From the NCBI GenBank assembly GCA_033391075.1, contig JAWPMV010000005.1:434001-498000 (forward strand): a stretch of 64,000 nucleotides of DNA. Direction: 5' to 3'. The notes below the pieces were generated by a model that searched no databases, was not told the DNA's origin, and saw nothing but the letters and a program-made list of their open reading frames with translations. This DNA comes from Bacteroidia bacterium (lineage in GTDB: Bacteria; Bacteroidota; Bacteroidia; J057). The position numbers and the translations under genes are program-made. Each line of letters begins with the position of its first letter. Position 1 is the first letter of the stretch. Shown here piece by piece: positions 3,643 through 35,915 of this stretch.

Positions 3643-5919
3643 ATGAGTAGTAGCAGGCACATAAAAATGCGAGGTCTTTCTCAAGCCATTTTCTGGCGAG
3701 GGGTACTGGCATCTGTCCTGTTTTTCACACTTCCTCAAATTCTTTTTGCTCAGGAAAATGTAGGCGAAAGGGAAATTCAACTTTCAGAACTCCTCAGCAG
3801 TGGAGATTTATATAAAGAGATCAATTTTCACCTGGATAGAGCAGAAAAATCCCCTTTCGCCAATGAATACGAAGCAGCAGAATCCCAGTTATCGAGTCTG
3901 GAGGAATTGAGTGCGGGGAAAAACCCCAAAAATGAGGCTCGGATTCACCTGGAACTTGGCTATCTCTATTATTTTCAGAGAGCTTATGAATCCTCCTTAC
4001 ATCACTTTCAGCTGGCAGGCAAAGAAGCCAATTGCCAAAAGGATGAAGAGACCTATTTCCATTCACTGATCGGAATAGCAACTACTAAAAATAATCAAAG
4101 TAGTTCTCTGGATGCTTTGGCTCCATTACGAGAAGCTTATCAGTTATCCAAAAAACTGGGAAGTGAAGAACACCGCATAGAAGCACTCAATCAATTGGCG
4201 ACCATTTATATGGCCGTGGGAAAACTGGATAGCGCTCATCTCTATTTTGATGAGCTATTGGTCTTACGGAGAGAAACAGAAGAGGCCGAAGTACTGGTCA
4301 GTGAACTTCATCATGTGGGAGACCTTTGTCTCAAGCAGGGAGCCTATGATCTGGCACAAGCTTATTTATTTGAAGCCCTGGAAATGGCCAGTGATCTGAA
4401 GAATAAACTCTTACGAGCAGCACTTATTACCGATATAGCCGACTTATTTGTACAACAGAAAGATTGGGGGAAAGCGATCCGATATGCTGAGGAGGGAATA
4501 GAGCTTTCAGAAAGTATGAACCTTTCCCATCTTACTTCCCAAAACTATAAATACAAAGGAAGTGCACTCGAAGCTCAACAAGATCGTCCAAATGCACTAA
4601 AAGCATACAGGTCTGCCCTCGATTTGCATATCAACAAACTCTCCGATCCAACAGAGGAAAATATGCTTAAAATCCGCATCGGTAAGTTATTGGAAGCCGA
4701 AGCTGATTATACATCTGCGAAAAAGCTCCTGGAAGAAGCGCTACAGGAAAAACTTCAATGGCAGGACAAGATCGGGATGCTGGAACTTAGCCTCAATCTG
4801 GGCGACCTCTACCTCATGGAGAGTCAATATAGAAAAGCTCTGAGCCACCTTTCCCGGGCAGAAGAATTAAGTCGGGAGCTCAAGAGCAGGAATGGGATGG
4901 CCAAAACCTATGATCTCAAGTCTCAAACTTATTCAAAGTTGGGCAATTACAAAGCTGCCTTCGAATTTCATACCCTCTTCAAGCAAGTTGACGATTCCCT
5001 ATTCACTGCCGAGAAAACCGAGATCGTCCAGGGTTTAGAAGAAAAGTACAGAGCCGCTCAAAAAGAACAAAGAAACCTGGAGCTTCAAAATGAAGTCACC
5101 CAAAATGAACTCCTCATTCAGGAGAATGAAAAGGATCTACTTGAAAAAAATGCCCAGATCTACTTCCTTATAGGCAGCGTGGGACTGCTTATTTTGCTTT
5201 TCATTGTCTTTCGGTATGGAAACCAAAAAAGAAGACAACTTCTGCAAGCCAAATTGGAAACCTCTGAAAAGGAACGAGAAGCAGAAAGCCTAAGGTCCAT
5301 GATCAGTGGAGAAGAATTGGAACGCAAACGTCTGGCCCGGGAATTACATGATGGTTTGGGCTCTCATTTGGCATCGGTAAAAATGCTGGTTGCAGCGATT
5401 CAGAATGACATACCCGAAGTCAAAGAATCTGAGCTGCATCAAAAAGCCGAAAGAATGCTTGATGAAGCCTGCCAGGAGATACGGGAAATCTCTCATAACC
5501 TCATGCCAGGTACCATTAGTCGATACGGTCTTGAACAATCCATTCAGGATATGTGCATCAACCTTCAGCAGTCTACCAAACTCCAGATCAGTTGCATGCT
5601 ACATATCGACCGACAAATAGATGAAAGTACGCAGGTATCCATGTACCGAATTGTGCAGGAATTGTTGAGGAATACAGTCAAACATGCCCAGGCAAAAGAG
5701 CTGATCGTCCAGGTACAAACGGATCCGGATCAAATCAGTCTGACGGTAGAAGATGATGGCATTGGATACCAGGATTCAAATAATAAAAGTGATGGCATTG
5801 GATTGATGAATGTGCGATCAAGGGTAGAATTACTCAAAGGAAGTCTTGATATTGATAGTAGACCTGGCAAAGGAACTTCCATTTACATTTGTATACCTTT
5901 ACTTCCTGAAGCGGAATAA
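3643..5919 (+). CDS. TPR-containing sensor histidine kinase (NarX/DesK-like HisKA_3)
   Basis: A 758-residue membrane kinase. After a signal segment ending near LFAQ come about eight tetratricopeptide repeats (residues 45-440), presumably periplasmic. A coiled coil and one transmembrane helix (about 505-525, FLIGSVGLLILLFIVF) follow. The HisKA_3 dimerisation domain has the phospho-acceptor in ELHDGLG (His569). The ATPase domain shows the N-box around ELLRNTVKHAQ and the glycine boxes DDGIGY, DGIGLMNV and GKGTS. It phosphorylates a response regulator, almost surely the NarL-type protein encoded 13 bp downstream. The upstream cupredoxin and porin share the transcript, so the signal may relate to copper or redox state (inferred). 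Confidence 0.92.
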   Translation: MSSSRHIKMRGLSQAIFWRGVLASVLFFTLPQILFAQENVGEREIQLSELLSSGDLYKEINFHLDRAEKSPFANEYEAAESQLSSLEELSAGKNPKNEARIHLELGYLYYFQRAYESSLHHFQLAGKEANCQKDEETYFHSLIGIATTKNNQSSSLDALAPLREAYQLSKKLGSEEHRIEALNQLATIYMAVGKLDSAHLYFDELLVLRRETEEAEVLVSELHHVGDLCLKQGAYDLAQAYLFEALEMASDLKNKLLRAALITDIADLFVQQKDWGKAIRYAEEGIELSESMNLSHLTSQNYKYKGSALEAQQDRPNALKAYRSALDLHINKLSDPTEENMLKIRIGKLLEAEADYTSAKKLLEEALQEKLQWQDKIGMLELSLNLGDLYLMESQYRKALSHLSRAEELSRELKSRNGMAKTYDLKSQTYSKLGNYKAAFEFHTLFKQVDDSLFTAEKTEIVQGLEEKYRAAQKEQRNLELQNEVTQNELLIQENEKDLLEKNAQIYFLIGSVGLLILLFIVFRYGNQKRRQLLQAKLETSEKEREAESLRSMISGEELERKRLARELHDGLGSHLASVKMLVAAIQNDIPEVKESELHQKAERMLDEACQEIREISHNLMPGTISRYGLEQSIQDMCINLQQSTKLQISCMLHIDRQIDESTQVSMYRIVQELLRNTVKHAQAKELIVQVQTDPDQISLTVEDDGIGYQDSNNKSDGIGLMNVRSRVELLKGSLDIDSRPGKGTSIYICIPLLPEAE

Positions 5920-12726: not shown

Positions 12727-13468
12727 GCCTGATTTTCATACTGACCTAAGCCAGGAATCGTTTGAGCAGATCGAGCGATATTTGCTGGATCAAATGGCGG
12801 ACCCAGAAAAAGCCAGCTTCGAAGCGGAGATGGTGAAAGACCAAATACTGGCCGGACAAACTGAAGGACTCAGAAACCTAATTCTGAGTGGTGAGATTCA
12901 TGGCTTGCAGGAAAGCATGGATAGATTTCATGATGATTTAGGAGAAGATGTTGGGAAAATCAAGAAATTGAATGCTCCCTTCCCTTTGAAACGCTACCTG
13001 ATTGCTGCAGCTATAGGAATATTGATTTTGATAGGTATTTTCAGCCTGCTAAACCGAGGGAGTCAGCATGAGCAATTATTCGCTTCTTATTTCCAGGCAG
13101 ATCCCGGTCTCATCACAAGTATGAGTAGCGGCAACAATTATGAATTCAATAAAGCGATGGTCGCATACAAGGAAGGGAAATACAAAGAAGCTATCGGAAG
13201 TTGGGAAAAGTTATACCAAAACAATCCTCAAAATGATAGCCTGAACTACTTCCTGGGTGCAGCTCATCTGGCAAATGAGGAAGCTGAAAAAGCAATCCTT
13301 TACCTGGAAAACCTATCTCCTCTGAAAGAAAGCAGCTTTCAAGAAGAAAGCTTTTGGTACCTGGGACTCGCCTACCTGAAATCGGGTGAGATCGAAAAGG
13401 CCCGAGAATTTATTTCCAAAAGCGATCGCCCAGAAAAAGCAAAACTACTTGAACTATTGAGCCCATAA
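12719..13468 (+). CDS. Single-pass membrane protein with TPR repeats, candidate anti-sigma factor
   Basis: A 249-residue protein. The N-terminal cytoplasmic part (1-90) contains a helical stretch (FEQIERYLLDQMADPEKASF) like the short zinc-less anti-sigma segment of many Bacteroidota sigma-factor partners. One transmembrane helix follows (about 99-117, LIAAAIGILILIGIFSLL). The C-terminal half has two to three TPR units (FNKAMVAYKEGKYKEAIGSW, LNYFLGAAHLANEEAEKAIL, FWYLGLAYLKSGEIEKAREF). It overlaps the sigma gene by 8 bp. Topology and position suggest it binds the sigma factor on the inside and a TPR partner on the outside. No HxxxCxxC zinc motif is present, so the anti-sigma call is inference; the TPR/TM description is direct. 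Confidence 0.75.
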   Translation: MHKPDFHTDLSQESFEQIERYLLDQMADPEKASFEAEMVKDQILAGQTEGLRNLILSGEIHGLQESMDRFHDDLGEDVGKIKKLNAPFPLKRYLIAAAIGILILIGIFSLLNRGSQHEQLFASYFQADPGLITSMSSGNNYEFNKAMVAYKEGKYKEAIGSWEKLYQNNPQNDSLNYFLGAAHLANEEAEKAILYLENLSPLKESSFQEESFWYLGLAYLKSGEIEKAREFISKSDRPEKAKLLELLSP

Positions 13469-18079: not shown

Positions 18080-18529
18080 ATGAAGGTCGAACCGAAAGGA
18101 ATTCAGCATGTAACCCAAGTCACTTTTCGAAACCTGAAAAAATCTGTACTTACGTTCACTTTGGGACTACTTGTCCTCACTGCTTGTGTAAAGTCAAATT
18201 CGAATAGTACTGAGGGAGAAGAAAAGCCATTGACGGGAGAAGAAGTAGTGGATGGAATTGATGTTTCTACAGGCTTTGTAGCAGAAGGAGATTATAAAAT
18301 CGTCAAAGCCAATTGTTTGGGTTGCCACTCAAGCAAGCTCATATTGCAAAATAGAGCGACCAGAGAAGGATGGGAAGAGATGATCAGATGGATGCAGGAA
18401 ACCCAGAAATTACACGATCTGGGACCTATGGAAGATAAAATCCTGGATTACCTGGCCAGCCATTATGCGCCGAAGGAAGAAGGTCGTCGCAAAACACTGG
18501 AAGTAGAAGAATGGTATGTAATAGAGTGA
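18080..18529 (+). CDS. Cytochrome c lipoprotein, SorB-like electron acceptor
   Basis: A 149-residue protein with a long N-terminus, a hydrophobic signal and the lipobox LVLTAC (about residues 29-34), so it is probably anchored to a membrane. One haem-binding motif CLGCH (Cys79, Cys82, His83) is present. A likely axial Met occurs downstream (EEMIRWMQETQ or LGPME). It starts 2 bp after the sulfite dehydrogenase stop, giving a coupled pair in which this subunit accepts electrons from the molybdenum centre. The true start may be internal, since the first 17 residues precede the signal. The cytochrome call is secure; the partner role follows from context. Confidence 0.85.
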   Translation: MKVEPKGIQHVTQVTFRNLKKSVLTFTLGLLVLTACVKSNSNSTEGEEKPLTGEEVVDGIDVSTGFVAEGDYKIVKANCLGCHSSKLILQNRATREGWEEMIRWMQETQKLHDLGPMEDKILDYLASHYAPKEEGRRKTLEVEEWYVIE

Positions 18530-18629
18530 AACGTGTTGGAGTGTTTACGTGTTAGGGTTCGAAAGTTGAAGTTTTTCTGATCCGATTACAACGCTAACAC
18601 GCACAAACCCCAGCACACAAACACGTTTT
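18529..18629. repeat. Imperfect inverted-repeat element rich in GTGTTxG / CxAACAC
   Basis: The gap holds GT-rich left arm motifs (AAACGTGTT..., CGTGTTAG) and CA-rich right arm motifs (CTAACACG..., AACACGTTT) around a central spacer. Pairing is imperfect. It looks like a small non-autonomous repeat of the kind dispersed in Bacteroidota intergenic regions, or a long terminator for the sorAB pair. Confidence 0.5.
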
Positions 18630-18632
18630 TAA

Positions 18633-19655
18633 ATGAACACCTACCTCGACATATTTATCAATGCTTACAAAGGCTATGCAGATTATCTCTGGAGAGAGAT
18701 CAGCTTTCAAGTGAGTCCTTTCTGGAAAAACTATTTCTGGATGCTGGTATTGGTGTCGGGTATTTTCTTTTTGCTGGAGGTGCTCAGACCCTGGCGGGAG
18801 GATCAGGCAAGATTCAGGAAAGATTTCTGGTTAGACTTTTTCTATATGTTCTTCAACTTCTTTCTTTTTTCCCTGATCATCTACAATGCATCCTCTGAAG
18901 TGATTGTGCGATTGTTTAATAATGGAATCATCTCCCTGACAGGTTTTGACCTTCAAGCTTCAAATCCTATGCAATACTGGCCCTATTGGGCAATCTTGTT
19001 GACAGGCTTTCTGGTGCGGGACTTTATTCAGTGGTGGGTACACCGACTTTTACATAAGTCCCCTAGCCTATGGGAATTTCATAAGGTTCATCACAGTGTA
19101 GAGCAAATGGGATTTGCTGCCCACCTTCGCTATCATTGGATGGAAAATGTAGTCTATCGCAGTTTAGAATATATTCCCCTCGCATTACTGGGAATAGGTC
19201 TACACGATTTTTTCCTCATCCACATCTTTACCCTTGCCTGGGGACATTACAACCATGCCAATATCAGTGTGGATGGTAAAGTGACGGGAGGAATCGTTGT
19301 AGGCCTCGTAGCTATATTCCTGCTTAGCACTGACTATTCACTTTCTTTGGGATGGACAATAGGAGTAATTGCCGGATCTGCACTTCTAGGCGCTTTTCTC
19401 CTGGGGCCGTATATGAAATATATCTTCAATAGTCCGGAAATGCATATTTGGCATCATTCCTATCACCTTCCGGAAGAGCGAAGATCTGGCGTAAACTTTG
19501 GCCTTACCTTAGCCATCTGGGATTACCTATGGAAAACCAACTACATCCCCCACAATGGTCGGGATATCCCCTTAGGCTTTCCCGGTCTGGAAAATTTCCC
19601 CAAAAGCTTTGCCGAACAAAATCTACATGGCTTTACTTCTAAAAAAGACCAGTAA
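18633..19655 (+). CDS. Sterol desaturase / fatty-acid hydroxylase family membrane protein
   Basis: A 340-residue integral membrane protein with about six transmembrane helices. The di-iron histidine boxes are visible: HRLLH (about 134-138), HKVHHS (about 149-154) and, after a central helical pair, HIWHHSYH (about 271-278). These ligate the non-haem di-iron centre that hydroxylates or desaturates a lipid C-H bond using oxygen. The length is usual for the bacterial branch of the superfamily. The substrate could be a fatty acid, sphingolipid, carotenoid or hopanoid. The gene is preceded by the inverted-repeat element and followed by a structured leader of the next gene, so it is probably monocistronic. 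Confidence 0.87.
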   Translation: MNTYLDIFINAYKGYADYLWREISFQVSPFWKNYFWMLVLVSGIFFLLEVLRPWREDQARFRKDFWLDFFYMFFNFFLFSLIIYNASSEVIVRLFNNGIISLTGFDLQASNPMQYWPYWAILLTGFLVRDFIQWWVHRLLHKSPSLWEFHKVHHSVEQMGFAAHLRYHWMENVVYRSLEYIPLALLGIGLHDFFLIHIFTLAWGHYNHANISVDGKVTGGIVVGLVAIFLLSTDYSLSLGWTIGVIAGSALLGAFLLGPYMKYIFNSPEMHIWHHSYHLPEERRSGVNFGLTLAIWDYLWKTNYIPHNGRDIPLGFPGLENFPKSFAEQNLHGFTSKKDQ

Positions 19656-31103: not shown

Positions 31104-31540
31104 CCCTGAATCCCTCGTGACTCGCCCTGATACTCTCGTTTTTAAAGGACAATAGTGCCTCTATTTGCCCTGAAATTCTCGTCGAGAGAAACCCTGAATC
31201 TCTCGTTTCGCATAAAAAATGGACCCTGATCTCCTCGTTTGATAGCCTGAATTACTCGCAATAAGGATAAATAGGGGCCATTTTTTATGCCCTGAATCTC
31301 TCGCATTTAAAGAATTGAGCTTCTTTTAGCCCTGATTTACTCCCCCTTTACCCTGTTTTCCTCGTCCTTAAAATTCTGAGATATCATAAAAGGCTAATAA
31401 TCAAGCATTTACTAATAAGCAGATTTCTTCTGACTTTAAGCCCTGAAATTCTCGTTTTAAATACCTGAATTACTCGCAATACGTACTGAAACCCTCGTCT
31501 TAAACCCCAAATCCCTCGTCCTTTACCCTGTTAAGCTCGT
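31104..31540 (+). repeat. Iteron array, about 14 copies, consensus CCCTGAATCTCTCGT
   Basis: Copies start at 31104, 31125, 31168, 31192, 31224, 31245, 31290, 31330, 31351, 31441, 31463, 31484, 31505 and 31526. Most share CCTG at the left and CTCGT or CTCGC at the right, while the middle varies. Start-to-start distance is 21-22 bp in seven cases and close to double that in three, so most copies lie on one face of the helix. A weaker copy may lie at about 31069-31083. All point the same way. They are the expected binding sites of the initiator encoded at 29765-31015. Confidence 0.9.
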
Positions 31541-31730
31541 TTTAATACTCATAAGTAGCTGTTTATCAATATCTTATAGTAACTGAAAACATTAAAAACT
31601 ATATAAATATTAAAAAGAGTGACAAACTACTATAGGTGGTAGGTCTTTTTTAGGCTTTATAGGAACAGGAGATGGCTTTTAGAGGATAACGCTATTCTTT
31701 TTACCCATGATCCTCCCCTATTTCTATATA

Positions 31731-31771
31731 AAATGAGAGAGATTCAGGGTCGCCCTGAATCTCTCTCATTT
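31731..31771. repeat. Perfect 19-bp inverted repeat made of two opposed iterons
   Basis: Two arms (31731-31749 and 31753-31771) are exact reverse complements separated by TCG. Each contains CCCTGAATCTCTC, the iteron core. It lies 20 bp beyond the stop of the RHH-type gene, so as RNA it would also terminate the partition operon. As DNA it could be an operator or handcuffing site for a Rep dimer. Confidence 0.85.
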
Positions 31772-31790
31772 CGAATATGTCTGGAAATAC

Positions 31791-32366
31791 TTAAGCTTTC
31801 TTTAAATAGCGGGAGAGGCAGAATACATAGAATCCGGCCATGTTCCGAAAACCCAGTTTCCGCTGATTGAATTTGATCTGCATCCATAATTCCAGCTGTG
31901 GAGAAACAGATACATCTATGCTATCCTCAAAATCAGGTGCTTCATAAGAACCTACACTCTGAATGGGTTTTTTGAGGTAATCTTCTACACAATGGAGGTA
32001 GAAAGCTCCCAGGCTTCTAAAGCCTTCTTTTCTCTGTACTCTTTTGGCTTTGAGGTAAAGCTCGTATGGGGTAGCGATGCTGGCTCTGACAACTTCCTCC
32101 TCAGAACGAGCTGGTGCTTTAGGAATAGATTTAGGCTTACGACTTACTTTGGCCTCTTTCTTCTTCTCAAGCTTCTCTATAGGATTTCCTTTCGGTTGTA
32201 CAGGGGCTTCTTTTACCTCCTTAACTTTAGGTTCAGCCTTTTTTTCCGGAAGCTTACTTACCTTATGTACTTTCTCGGTCGCTTGCTCGATTTCATCAAT
32301 ATTGATCTCGCGCTTCCTGCCTAATAAACTTGAAAGTGATGTATCGTCTCGTCTTTTCTTTGCCAT
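31791..32366 (-). CDS. Partition partner protein with two ribbon-helix-helix-like units
   Basis: A 191-residue protein encoded 3 bp after parA. The N-terminal 85 residues are charged, Lys/Glu/Pro-rich and probably disordered, beginning KKRRDDTSLSSLLGRKR. The C-terminal half holds two copies of one unit, residues about 92-133 and 150-190; their helical cores (ELYLKAKRVQRKEGFR... and ELWMQIKFNQRKLGFR...) are about 50% identical by eye. Each unit reads as strand, helix, turn, helix, the ribbon-helix-helix pattern used by ParG, omega and other type Ib centromere-binding proteins. Two units in one chain would make a single-chain pseudo-dimer. Location next to a small ParA and a repeat array supports centromere binding and autorepression; the basic N-terminus could stimulate ParA ATPase. 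Family identity is inferred. Confidence 0.72.
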   Translation of the reverse strand: MAKKRRDDTSLSSLLGRKREINIDEIEQATEKVHKVSKLPEKKAEPKVKEVKEAPVQPKGNPIEKLEKKKEAKVSRKPKSIPKAPARSEEEVVRASIATPYELYLKAKRVQRKEGFRSLGAFYLHCVEDYLKKPIQSVGSYEAPDFEDSIDVSVSPQLELWMQIKFNQRKLGFRNMAGFYVFCLSRYLKKA

Positions 32367-32369
32367 ACC

Positions 32370-33032
32370 TTATGCACTTAACAGTTTGATCATTCGATTT
32401 TCGATTTCTTTGCAGACTTTCTCTACTTCCTTTTGCCCTTTGGGATCTTCTTCCCATTCGAGTGCTGTCAATCCATATTTTGAAGATCTTTTGTGCACTA
32501 CCCTATCTGCCAAAGTTGATTCCAGGGCCTCAATTTCAAATTGTTTGAAATAGCCCATAGCTTCCCGCATTTGTAGATCTTCATTGTTTCTGCCAGAAAA
32601 TTTGTTTAGCAAAAGAAAGGTATAAATATTTCGCTCAACCAGGGCTTTGGCATCATTGACACGATCTACAAATCGCTCAAAACTTTTGAGATCATCGATA
32701 CTAGGGGTTATGGGAATGAGAACCAAATCAGAAAGGAGGATCATCTTAGTTGTTACAGCCTCCAATTGGGGAACTCCATCTATGATGATCACATCATATT
32801 CATTCTGGTAGGATTTGACCTGTTTCACCAGGTTTTCTACGGATTGTAAAGGAAATACATCCAGACTGGCACCTTCCTCCCTCCTGCTCTTCCAGTCAAG
32901 GGTTGTTTGCTGTTCAATATCTGTATCGACAATACAGATGCTTTCCCCTTTTTGGGCAAAGTAAACAGCGAGATTTCTACTAATCGTAGATTTGCCTACG
33001 CCGCCTTTTAAATTTGTAACTGATATGATCAT
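32370..33032 (-). CDS. parA: ParA family partition ATPase (small, type Ib-like)
   Basis: A 220-residue deviant Walker A ATPase. The motif KGGVGKST (Lys9-Thr16) includes the signature lysine. Walker A' is VDTDIEQQTT and Walker B is DVIIIDGVPQ. The small size and lack of an N-terminal helix-turn-helix place it with type Ib ParA proteins (ParF, delta), which do not bind the operator themselves. It drives segregation of the replicon by forming ATP-dependent patterns on nucleoid DNA. The partner is the tandem-RHH protein 3 bp downstream. The start codon abuts the 8-bp repeat array, so transcription must initiate within that array and should be controlled by the partner protein. Confidence 0.93.
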   Translation of the reverse strand: MIISVTNLKGGVGKSTISRNLAVYFAQKGESICIVDTDIEQQTTLDWKSRREEGASLDVFPLQSVENLVKQVKSYQNEYDVIIIDGVPQLEAVTTKMILLSDLVLIPITPSIDDLKSFERFVDRVNDAKALVERNIYTFLLLNKFSGRNNEDLQMREAMGYFKQFEIEALESTLADRVVHKRSSKYGLTALEWEEDPKGQKEVEKVCKEIENRMIKLLSA

Positions 33033-33036
33033 AATA

Positions 33037-33580
33037 CCTTTTTATGTAGATACTTTCTGAGGTGTTTACATAAATACATTTATACTTTTTTTAGTAAAAA
33101 TGTAAATACACTTATGTATAAAAACACATTTGTGTAAACACTTGATTATGTATACATGTTTTTGTGTAAAAATTCATACATGTAAACACATTTATATCTA
33201 ATTGTGTATTAACACTTTTGCATAATTACTTAAAAAAGTTAAAACATCAAAATGTATTGCGGTATTTATGTATTAATGTGTTTTCATTTTTAGGTACTCA
33301 GGTAATTACATATTGATGTTTTTGTGTAATTGCATTTTTGAATTTAAAGGTGGAAATGTAATTACATTAAACTGTTGATGCATTTATATGTGATTACTTT
33401 TTTATGTTTTTGAATTATCAGGTATTTGCGTGATTGTGTATTTTTGTGATCGTGTATATACATTTTTGTGCTAGTCGAATTTTGTGTATTTACATTTTTG
33501 GGTAATTGTGTTGTTGTGTATTTCTGTGCTTACCTATTTAGGTAATCCTGTATTCATGCGCTTATGTATTTTGCGTTAAA
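33037..33580. repeat. Contiguous 8-bp-periodic array, putative centromere (parS/parC) and parA promoter
   Basis: About 68 unspaced octamers in a single register run from next to the parA start codon to about 33580. The consensus is roughly TGTATTTA, alternating with CATTTTTG; recurrent forms include TGTAAACA, TGTAATTA, GGTATTTG, CATTTATA and TGTTTTTG. In 16-bp steps from 33101 to 33565, 17 of 30 blocks begin TGT, four begin GGT, and 28 have T at the third base (hand count). The register never slips over this range. Type Ib centromeres recognised by RHH proteins lie upstream of parA and consist of short contiguous repeats, for example the 7-bp units of the omega system. Function is inferred from this parallel. 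Confidence 0.78.
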
Positions 33581-33824
33581 ACTGCTTGCTAAAAGCCTGT
33601 CAATCCCAAGCTGTTGTATTTGTGCTCAACAGGGAGATCAGGCCTTAGAATGTAAATATGGGCTTTCTGTTGCCAGGGTAGAGGCAGGTTTTACACATGC
33701 TTAATACATAAAGAACAGAATTCTCAGAAATCTTTGAAAATAGCTTTCTAAGGCTCCAAACATAGTGAATAGAAAGGAATAATAATAAAGCATCATTCCT
33801 TTTTATGACAAACTCCTTAAACAA
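33581..33824. other. Intergenic region between the repeat array and the S9 peptidase gene
   Basis: It contains a small hairpin CTGTTG / CAACAG (33611-33632) and the terminator of the peptidase gene (33773-33802). No gene is seen. Confidence 0.5.
33773..33802 (-). terminator. Terminator after the S9 peptidase gene
   Basis: AAAGGAAT / ATTCCTTT pair across a 14-nt loop, 23 bp beyond the minus-strand stop. Confidence 0.5.
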
Positions 33825-35915
33825 TTACTTTAAATGTTTATTGAGAAAGTTTTTGCTCTTTTGAAATGCGCTTAGCCAGTTTTTAAATAATAGAAATCCA
33901 TGAACCTCATCTGGAAATATCAATTGTTCTATTTCTATCTCTCTTTTTCTTAGTTGATTTATGAGATCGACAGATTCACTAAATGGTACGTTTCGATCAT
34001 CATCTCCATGGATTACCAAAACCGGATCTTCCCAACCTTCAATGAAATTCATTGGAGAAGATTCATAAGCTCTCCGAGATATCTCTGCTTGTTTCTGTGA
34101 ATTATATCCTGGTACAAAATTTTTGATTACTACATTCCAATCATGAACCCCATGAATATCAACACCCGCCTTGAACAATTCGGGAGATCTTGCTAATCCC
34201 ATGGCTGTTAAAAATCCCCCATAAGATCCCCCCCATAATCCGATTCGATTCTCATCTACAAAATCATTACTCCCTAAATAAATTGCAGCACCCATGACAT
34301 CATTAAATTCACTTGCCCCATTCGCTCCATAATTCAAGGCTTCTCTAAACTCCATTCCATATCCAATTCCGCTTCGATAGTTCACAGATAAAACTGCATA
34401 GCCCTGATTCGCCATATACTGGTTGAAGGCATAGGCATTGTGATAATATCCTCGATGATGAAAACCCAATAACATTTGTCTCCGGGATCCTCCATGAAAG
34501 AAGAGTAATCCTGGAAGCTTTTCCCCGGACTTGTGGGCTTTGGGAAGAAAGAGCTGGCCGTGTATCTTCATTCCATCGGCTGCCGGAAAAATTACTTGCT
34601 TGGGTTCACTTAAATGATCCGAAGGAAAGGCATTTATTACATCTGGATGTAAGGCAGTCCGTTTACCTTTTTGATCCAATCCTACCAAATGTGCAGGAAG
34701 TTTTGAACCTGAGGCAAAACACATGAGTTTCCCATTGGGCAATTCTAATGGAGCCCATTCGATTCCTTCGCCCGAAGTCAGCTGTTTCCATTCATTTGAA
34801 GCAAGATTTACCTGCCAGATGTGTTGACGATCAATATCTCCATGATTGCTAGAATAATACAGACGCTCCCTATTAGCTGATAAAGACACAAATTGGACTT
34901 CCCCTTCACCGGGACTGAGGTCCTTTAACTGCCCACTTTCTAGTGAAAGACTGTATAAATGGGTCCAGCCGGTACCTTCATAAGGAAAAATGAGTTGCTC
35001 CCTGGTTCCCCAATACAATTGCCTTGGACCAGAAACAAAGCGAAATACACTACCCGTACCTTCCGGACTGCTCCAAAGGACCTCACTTTCTCCGCTATCC
35101 ACATCAGCAAGCATTACAGACCATCCCGCTCCCGAACGCCTTTCAAAAAAGGGTAGAAAAGATTGATGAGGTGTTCGGAGAAAAGCGACTCTATCAGCTT
35201 GCGGGGACCAAACTGGATTACTGTCCAGGTCTACAGAAGGAGAGAGGTATTTGAGTGAATGATTGTCCAGGTCAAAAATCCCAATAAAGCTGTGATCTCC
35301 TCGACTGCTTACAAAGGCTATTTTATGTTCATCGGCTTTCGGAGACCAATTTATCTGTGAGATTCCCCCACGAGTATGAACCATTGCTGCGGGAGTAAGA
35401 ATGTTCTCCAGGTTTCTTAACCAGAGTTTGCCTCCCTGAATAAAAGCTAAATGATGACTGTCAGGCGATAGGCTAGGGGAGTGGCCTTCATTGATTTTCT
35501 GTGTTTTCCCATCTTTGGTGGAGATTTTCCAAATTTCTCGTTTTGCCCCATCTGCTTGACTGGTAGGATTGGGAATTTCTCCTTGTCGATTAGGTCCATC
35601 ACCTTTTACATAGATTATGAACTTAGCATCAGCACTAAATTGAAGTCCATAGAGGGTTTCTCCATTATCGAGGGTATAATTCGTCAATTGTTTTCCCGCA
35701 TCATCTGTTCCAGAGGAGATCCAGATATTCCTTACACCTTTTTCATTGTATACCCAGGCAATTTTTTCTCCATTGGGACTGTAAACCAGATTTGTGGGGA
35801 AAGGTGCTGCCAGAAGGGATTCGAGGCTGAGAGTTGTTTGGGCGAAAGAATTGTTAAGGGAAGAAGTGATCAAAATACAGATCAGGATTCGAAGGAAGGA
35901 AGCCATCGATTGCAT
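33825..35915 (-). CDS. Prolyl oligopeptidase family (S9) serine peptidase
   Basis: A 696-residue exported peptidase with a signal peptide ending in SFAQ. A seven-bladed beta-propeller of PD40/TolB-type repeats covers about residues 35-420 (NLVYSPNGEKIAWVYN, WSPQADRVAFLRT). The alpha/beta-hydrolase domain (about 440-696) has the full triad: nucleophile Ser564 in GGSYGGF, Asp in GDDDRNVPF (638-640) and His672 in DEVHGF. It is of the acylaminoacyl-peptidase/DPP-IV type and cleaves short peptides in the periplasm. The length is normal. It is monocistronic, with its own terminator, and lies just outside the partition region with no obvious link to it. Confidence 0.92.
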   Translation of the reverse strand: MQSMASFLRILICILITSSLNNSFAQTTLSLESLLAAPFPTNLVYSPNGEKIAWVYNEKGVRNIWISSGTDDAGKQLTNYTLDNGETLYGLQFSADAKFIIYVKGDGPNRQGEIPNPTSQADGAKREIWKISTKDGKTQKINEGHSPSLSPDSHHLAFIQGGKLWLRNLENILTPAAMVHTRGGISQINWSPKADEHKIAFVSSRGDHSFIGIFDLDNHSLKYLSPSVDLDSNPVWSPQADRVAFLRTPHQSFLPFFERRSGAGWSVMLADVDSGESEVLWSSPEGTGSVFRFVSGPRQLYWGTREQLIFPYEGTGWTHLYSLSLESGQLKDLSPGEGEVQFVSLSANRERLYYSSNHGDIDRQHIWQVNLASNEWKQLTSGEGIEWAPLELPNGKLMCFASGSKLPAHLVGLDQKGKRTALHPDVINAFPSDHLSEPKQVIFPAADGMKIHGQLFLPKAHKSGEKLPGLLFFHGGSRRQMLLGFHHRGYYHNAYAFNQYMANQGYAVLSVNYRSGIGYGMEFREALNYGANGASEFNDVMGAAIYLGSNDFVDENRIGLWGGSYGGFLTAMGLARSPELFKAGVDIHGVHDWNVVIKNFVPGYNSQKQAEISRRAYESSPMNFIEGWEDPVLVIHGDDDRNVPFSESVDLINQLRKREIEIEQLIFPDEVHGFLLFKNWLSAFQKSKNFLNKHLK

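Follow-up and report, generated by a model that had tools for sequence, protein, structure and literature searches.

In type Ib plasmid partition systems, the centromere lies upstream of the operon and the centromere-binding protein usually represses parA (PMC5016525). One such protein, ParB of pCXC100, acts on a repeat array, parC, that consists of direct repeats only (PMC5016525). In TP228 parFGH, which has ParG as its RHH protein, parH as its centromere and OF as its operator, degenerate tetramer boxes with AT-rich spacers are found upstream of the ParA gene (PMC7308502, PMC5016525), and the RHH protein omega of pSM19035 occupies contiguous short repeats that overlap the par promoters, with at least four contiguous heptads reported to be needed for full activation of the ParA ATPase (PMC9499535). 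The conjugation protein TraY of F is described as holding an entire RHH dimer fold within one polypeptide, and its R1 counterpart may bind the subsites ATGT, ATTT and ACAT (PMC12117103). In these sources and PMC9178275, and in a literature search that covered mainly open-access papers, neither an 8-bp array of the length reported here nor a tandem-RHH centromere-binding protein was described.

The window analysed here is a stretch of 64,000 bp (genome G000, contig C5, positions 434001–498000) from a 529,048-bp replicon, in a 9.49-Mb genome of five contigs. Reading along the minus strand, an array with an 8-bp register is followed by parA, a gene for a 191-aa protein, a set of iteron-like repeats and rep (Table 1). 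The array likely serves a type Ib-like partition locus on this Rep_3 replicon as its centromere, and probably as its operator too; the RHH protein would coat it and so link the plasmid to ParA. We infer both binding to the array and a role in segregation.

Table 1 Features of the partition and replication region, in window coordinates
Feature	Coordinates	Strand	Basis
Array in 8-bp register, ~67–68 units; candidate centromere and parA operator	33033..33580	no strand	Periodicity, phase tracking, period comparison
parA, small ParA-type ATPase, 220 aa	32370..33032	-	Pfam AAA_31, CbiA; NCBIfam NF041546
Candidate centromere-binding protein, 191 aa; N-terminal tail and two predicted RHH units per chain	31791..32366	-	
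First predicted RHH unit, residues 90–133	31968..32099	-	HMM from RHH cores of 14 relatives
Second predicted RHH unit, residues 146–190, internal duplicate of the first	31797..31931	-	Internal alignment
13 degenerate copies of CCTGAATTCCTCG, likely replication iterons, apart from the array	31105..31518	+	Pattern scan
Rep_3-type replication initiator, 416 aa	29765..31015	-	Rep3_N 5.5e-41, Rep3_C 2.5e-17
Possible short secondary site, best octamer-matrix match outside the array	18529..18632	no strand	Replicon scan

The layout agrees with type Ib on each point examined. ParA is small, as in type Ib (RHH) systems (about 200–250 aa, lacking an N-terminal HTH), and its deviant Walker A box, KGGVGKS, is so close to the N terminus that a DNA-binding domain could not fit in front of it. 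Its best NCBIfam match is ParA_partition (NF041546), at 153.2 bits and thus under the curated cut-off of 180; no relatives of this ParA were found in viral contigs. An RHH gene, RHH by prediction only, lies directly downstream of parA after a 3-base gap, and the repeat array lies upstream of the par operon. The partner role that an earlier sequence-only reading of this DNA had given to the 191-aa protein is supported; that reading does not mention the tandem RHH units.

Between rep and the partner gene, a pattern scan found the copies of CCTGAATTCCTCG on the plus strand with no more than 4 mismatches in 13 positions and a spacing of at least 21 bp; the same scan found none on the minus strand. 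These repeats are likely the iterons of the Rep_3 initiator. They also bear on whether the array itself could belong to the replication origin, as iterons or as an AT-rich unwinding element. Its AT-richness and its proximity to rep, on rep's own replicon, would suit such a role, but the repeats that adjoin rep are of another sequence and, in other replicons, the 8-bp register accompanies parA. We therefore regard an origin function as very improbable, and a reading of the array as replication iterons was dropped given the separate 13-copy set by rep.

The sequence-only reading had described some 68 contiguous octamers without a register slip, starting at the first codon of parA. In 40-bp windows advanced by 16 bp, leave-one-out phase tracking found a single phase for every window start from 33008 to 33536 and lost it at 33552. 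The top slip-free segment runs from −536 to 0 relative to the parA start (33033–33568, 67 units) and the register can be followed up to about 33580, so both statements hold. The block counts given at the time were exact: among 30 blocks of 16 bp (33101–33565), 17 begin with TGT and 4 with GGT, and the third position is T in 28.

Autocorrelation of positions 33037–33580 against 500 dinucleotide shuffles, the check that had been proposed for the register, gave z values of 6.4, 8.9, 7.0 and 9.9 at lags of 8, 16, 24 and 32 bp, respectively. The chi-square of base against position modulo 8 was 314.6, compared with a mean of 20.9 and a maximum of 48.6 in the 500 shuffles. The lag-8 z was only 0.4 in a control stretch (33600–34143), and a period of 7 received no support within the array (lag-7 z = −2.9; chi-square of 12.6 versus a shuffle mean of 18.0). 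When the whole replicon was tiled into 755 segments of 700 bp and the best period was scored for each, period 8 came out on top in two: that of the array, and one near C5 433085 with a short simple CTCCTGAT repeat. The array beside parA is the only strong 8-bp array that the tile scan found in the 529-kb replicon. The simple repeat, CTCCTGAT/CTCATGAT, also of period 8, lies outside the window (L117, about 13084–13131). A comparison of the array DNA with the plasmid collection found no similarity.

Such periodicity might be a passive, functionless by-product of tandem duplication or of AT-rich low complexity, and the array is indeed AT-rich and degenerate. However, dinucleotide shuffles fail to produce the periodicity, neighbouring units are as unlike as distant ones (identity at lag 8 of 0.450 versus 0.467 ± 0.020 for permuted octamers), and the 8-bp register recurs beside parA elsewhere in different letters. 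We find a passive origin hardly credible. Because adjacent octamers are no closer than permuted ones, the array is no fresh slippage expansion, and tandem expansion was dropped as its origin. The same observation suggests that a factor that reads position, rather than recent copying, keeps the register.

Across 68 octamers, the first column is a pyrimidine (T in 31, C in 23), the second a purine (G in 39, A in 19) and the third T in 60; the fourth is A or T with some G, the fifth to seventh are mostly A or T, and the eighth is again a purine (A in 41, G in 18). The unit can be written as a degenerate RYRT tetramer (ATGT, GTGT, ACAT, AGGT and others) followed by a 4-bp AT-rich spacer, with an AT fraction of 0.88 in the spacer and 0.61 in the box. 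Of 69 boxes read, 13 are ATGT, 9 GTGT, 8 ACAT and 6 AGGT, and 35 fit RYRT. ATGT and ACAT are reverse complements, which makes the units readable in either direction. The box core is TG in 28 units, CA in 15 and neither in 26, and the alternation of orientation is at chance (20 versus 19.5 expected).

TAnnTTTG is a promoter motif of the Bacteroidota type. Within 33033–33600 it was not found on the parA strand, and one copy is present on the other strand at 33439. A sigma-70 scan of 31500–33900 returned 4 sites, fewer than the 7.4 in shuffles, and recognised no promoter inside the array; one match on the parA strand, at 33811–33782, lies past the far end of the array.

To place the register, we assembled 50 further loci by ParA similarity, a sample rather than a census. 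They comprise the three best from outside the own genome among 60 neighbourhood genomes, together with the own second copy on C3; 12 of 40 matches listed in the plasmid collection; all four loci in GTDB contigs, with 57–63% ParA identity; 29 loci besides our own from 395 phylum genomes, of 54 matches listed; and one TP228-type locus. All periods from 5 to 14 were scored over the region upstream of parA (at most 900 bp), with 30 shuffles each. Period 8 was best at 22 of these 50 loci (23 of 51 with our array) and its score beat all 30 shuffles at 32 of the 51. When ParA proteins were clustered at 50% identity, 9 of 21 clusters included at least one locus that peaked at period 8 and scored above its shuffles there. 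The top period was not 8 at 28 of the 51 loci. These include the locus of the genome's other small ParA (C3) and, leaving the TP228-type locus aside, three of the four plasmid loci with a ParG-annotated partner, namely those of Desulfohalobium (L088), Serratia (L090) and Aeromonas (L091). An 8-bp array is present at a Pantoea locus whose partner scores above the Pfam ParG cut-off.

At the TP228-type parF–parG locus, the 300 bp before parF contain 16 exact ACTC/GAGT boxes, 13 of which fall at multiples of 8 bp in three runs (−164, −156, −148; −130, −122, −114, −106, −90; −52, −44, −36, −28, −4) with slips between the runs; the other three are at −218, −190 and −63. Period 8 is the best period here (z = 5.0), and this spacing of the TP228-type sites was measured in the present analysis. 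The sequence-only reading had taken the 8-bp unit as the mark of a new type of centromere. Since period 8 leads at 22 of 50 other loci and spaces the TP228-type boxes, as well as being present at the Pantoea ParG locus, the register does not define a new type. Its suggestion of a centromere with operator function, by contrast, is well supported by comparison, as similar 8-bp arrays lie upstream of parA in many of the relatives examined.

What sets our array apart in this sample is its length. Its 536 bp without a slip (score 145.9) amount to about 1.7 times the next longest segment found, which is 320 bp but weak (13.5) and belongs to the Haliscomenobacter plasmid pHALHY03. A segment of 304 bp at L060 is strong (88.3, the second highest score of the set), several loci reach about 200 bp (for example, L067 with 44.5 and G003 with 8.9), and G010 has 144 bp (35.6). 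The L060 array extends from −320 to −16 upstream of parA, with about 38 units of ACAC/GTAA-type boxes. At the four closest ParA relatives found (57–63% identity), the best upstream period-8 segments measure 48–80 bp, and period 8 is on top in one of the four in the test of periods 5 to 14 and in two of the four in another period test. Because their arrays are short at most, great length is not common to the closest relatives. At L054 and L055, a period-8 stretch (about 4901–5060) is located at or just past the end of the RHH gene, and not as a long array upstream of parA.

The tetramers differ from locus to locus, with CATG at L073 and L086, TACG at the Pantoea locus (L092) and CTGT/ACAG at G010 (by eye) among others, as expected if DNA and protein change together as pairs. 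Boxes vary where the RHH ribbon varies; the CATG boxes of L073 and L086, for instance, go with the ribbon KKAVTVWFEPD. Judged from these sequences, the pairing of box and ribbon might possibly amount to a recognition code.

A further question is whether the array could be mainly an autoregulatory operator of the par operon, with the true centromere elsewhere, for example at the short secondary site listed in Table 1 or downstream of the partner gene. The array does begin at the parA start codon. The secondary site reached an octamer-matrix score of 20–21 in the replicon scan, compared with 11 for the next match outside the array, and none of 2,000 shuffles of the local 400 bp attained it. In two of the four closest relatives (L054 and L055), the period-8 stretch where the partner gene ends is similar in size to the upstream one. 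However, 536 bp would be far beyond the needs of an operator, no other strong array was found on the replicon, and published type Ib centromeres lie upstream of the operon (PMC5016525). We consider an operator-only role unlikely and favour a centromere that probably also serves as the operator. At the secondary site, short CACG/CGTG-type stretches with 8-bp spacing form an inverted pair between 18080–18529 and the gene at 18633–19655.

We then turned to the partner protein. Searched against Pfam, its 191 residues had no match at E ≤ 1, hence neither ParG (PF09274) nor TraY, and in the absence of a Pfam ParG match we do not file it as ParG. No relatives were detected in the plasmid collection at E ≤ 0.1, and among 395 genomes of the class only its own genome was returned. 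A search of 395 phylum genomes with the 106-aa double unit yielded one weak extra match (E = 0.006), which we took as chance; it is antisense to a 254-aa frame that resembles an enoyl-CoA hydratase by eye. A sequence search of solved structures gave a single, uninformative match (E = 0.079).

Residues 90–133 and 146–190 are duplicates, with a local alignment score of 97 compared with a maximum of 45 in 5,000 shuffles. Testing 45 partners for internal duplication (four of 49, L054, L062, L072 and L081, were left out because automated selection gave no partner gene or the wrong one), we obtained a z of 13.0 for the 191-aa protein; the next was L073 (89 aa) with 4.1. The other 44 partners are 71–152 aa long. 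An HMM built from the RHH cores of 14 relatives matched residues 92–133 with 13.7 bits, a modest margin over 9.5 for the best of 1,000 shuffles, and did not report the second unit. The N-terminal tail carries an IExA...H motif like that of the relatives, as judged by eye.

A structure model of the whole protein had a pLDDT of 63. Modelling residues 86–191 from six sequences gave a pLDDT of 74 and a pTM of 0.60, with four helices in two pairs and a low-confidence linker between the two units; neither model contains an assigned beta strand. Across both units, the 86–191 model aligned with a permuted single-chain Arc (Z = 8.4, 80 residues, r.m.s.d. 2.5) and with chains of the F relaxosome (Z = 8.0, 77 residues, r.m.s.d. 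2.2), whereas the next different protein was DndE (Z = 5.5). A Z of about 8 is middling, and the aligner warns that it may reflect just a common arrangement. Foldseek results for the same model were weak, the best being the F relaxosome with an E of 2.5. We take the aligned relaxosome chains to be TraY, because they have about 100–118 residues and one entry is stated to be without TraM. The models thus suggest that the partner probably has two RHH units in one chain, as does single-chain Arc and, by extension, F TraY.

Two such units in a chain need not pair with each other. They could instead pair between chains and link neighbouring heads in a daisy chain with a footprint of 16 bp or longer, as might fit the low-confidence linker and a marginal extra similarity at 16 and 32 bp (36 and 8 of 1,000 permutations, respectively, with 11 lags tried). 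Against this, the model of the unit pair alone aligns across both units with single-chain RHH structures, and unit orientation alternates no more than by chance. We rate pairing between chains as rather unlikely. A 16-bp super-unit that matches the two RHH units was rejected, given the marginal lag signal and unit orientation without alternation.

In our preferred model, both halves of a reading head probably come from one polypeptide, a single-chain RHH pseudo-dimer like F TraY. A single chain would then read each octamer. At every tetramer, one RHH ribbon would insert into the major groove. The DNA helix has 10.5 bp per turn. With 8 bp per unit, successive heads would advance by about 274 degrees, giving about 4.2 heads per left-handed turn and about 16 turns over the array and, by virtue of this advance, a continuous left-handed protein coat. 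The N-terminal tails would stick out of the coat and stimulate nucleoid-bound ParA–ATP, thereby moving plasmid copies, and with so long an unbroken phase, the ParA-activating surface would be a single long one. The coat should also repress parA through its parA-proximal units, given that the array directly adjoins the start of the gene. We see about an even chance for the full proposal, namely a natural single-chain RHH pseudo-dimer with an asymmetric head made from two unequal strands, whose monomers form a filament of about 16 turns on about 67 octamers, the longest slip-free array among the loci examined.

The array offers a natural extreme for asking how many contiguous RHH sites plasmids need and what a long phase adds. 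A single-chain RHH partner, if true, would permit asymmetric mutants in which one half of the head is altered at a time, which is impossible with a homodimer. Efforts to match RHH residues to the tetramers they read can start from the comparison set, in which the 8-bp register comes with varied tetramers and neighbouring RHH genes, and a simple test for 8-bp periodicity can flag unannotated centromeres in Bacteroidota plasmids.

How, then, does the locus relate to the described systems? The parallel with omega drawn by the sequence-only reading holds in that pSM19035 delta/omega/parS also combines contiguous short repeats with an RHH protein, but of the two known architectures, omega and ParG/parH, it is the less similar one: pSM19035 has 7-bp units, 7–10 per site at six sites, compared with 8-bp units, about 67 of them, at one site here. 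The resemblance to TraY lies in boxes similar to the R1 TraY subsites and may extend to a whole RHH dimer fold in one chain, as modelled; TraY, however, acts at oriT in conjugation, whereas the gene for our partner sits with parA and rep. With TP228 parFGH, the locus shares a small ParA, an RHH gene just downstream and an array of degenerate tetramers with 4-bp AT-rich spacers in an 8-bp step. It differs in the boxes, which are ACTC/GAGT in short runs with slips in TP228 and of the ATGT/GTGT/ACAT type in one phase over about 67 units here, and in the partner, as ParG is a single-RHH intertwined dimer and ours has two RHH-like units per chain and no Pfam ParG match. On sequence grounds, the 8-bp register is that of the parH/ParG-like type Ib architecture in an extreme form. 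The 8-bp spacing is thus known, and what is new is the slip-free length, combined with an RHH partner that is double-headed and probably works as a single chain.
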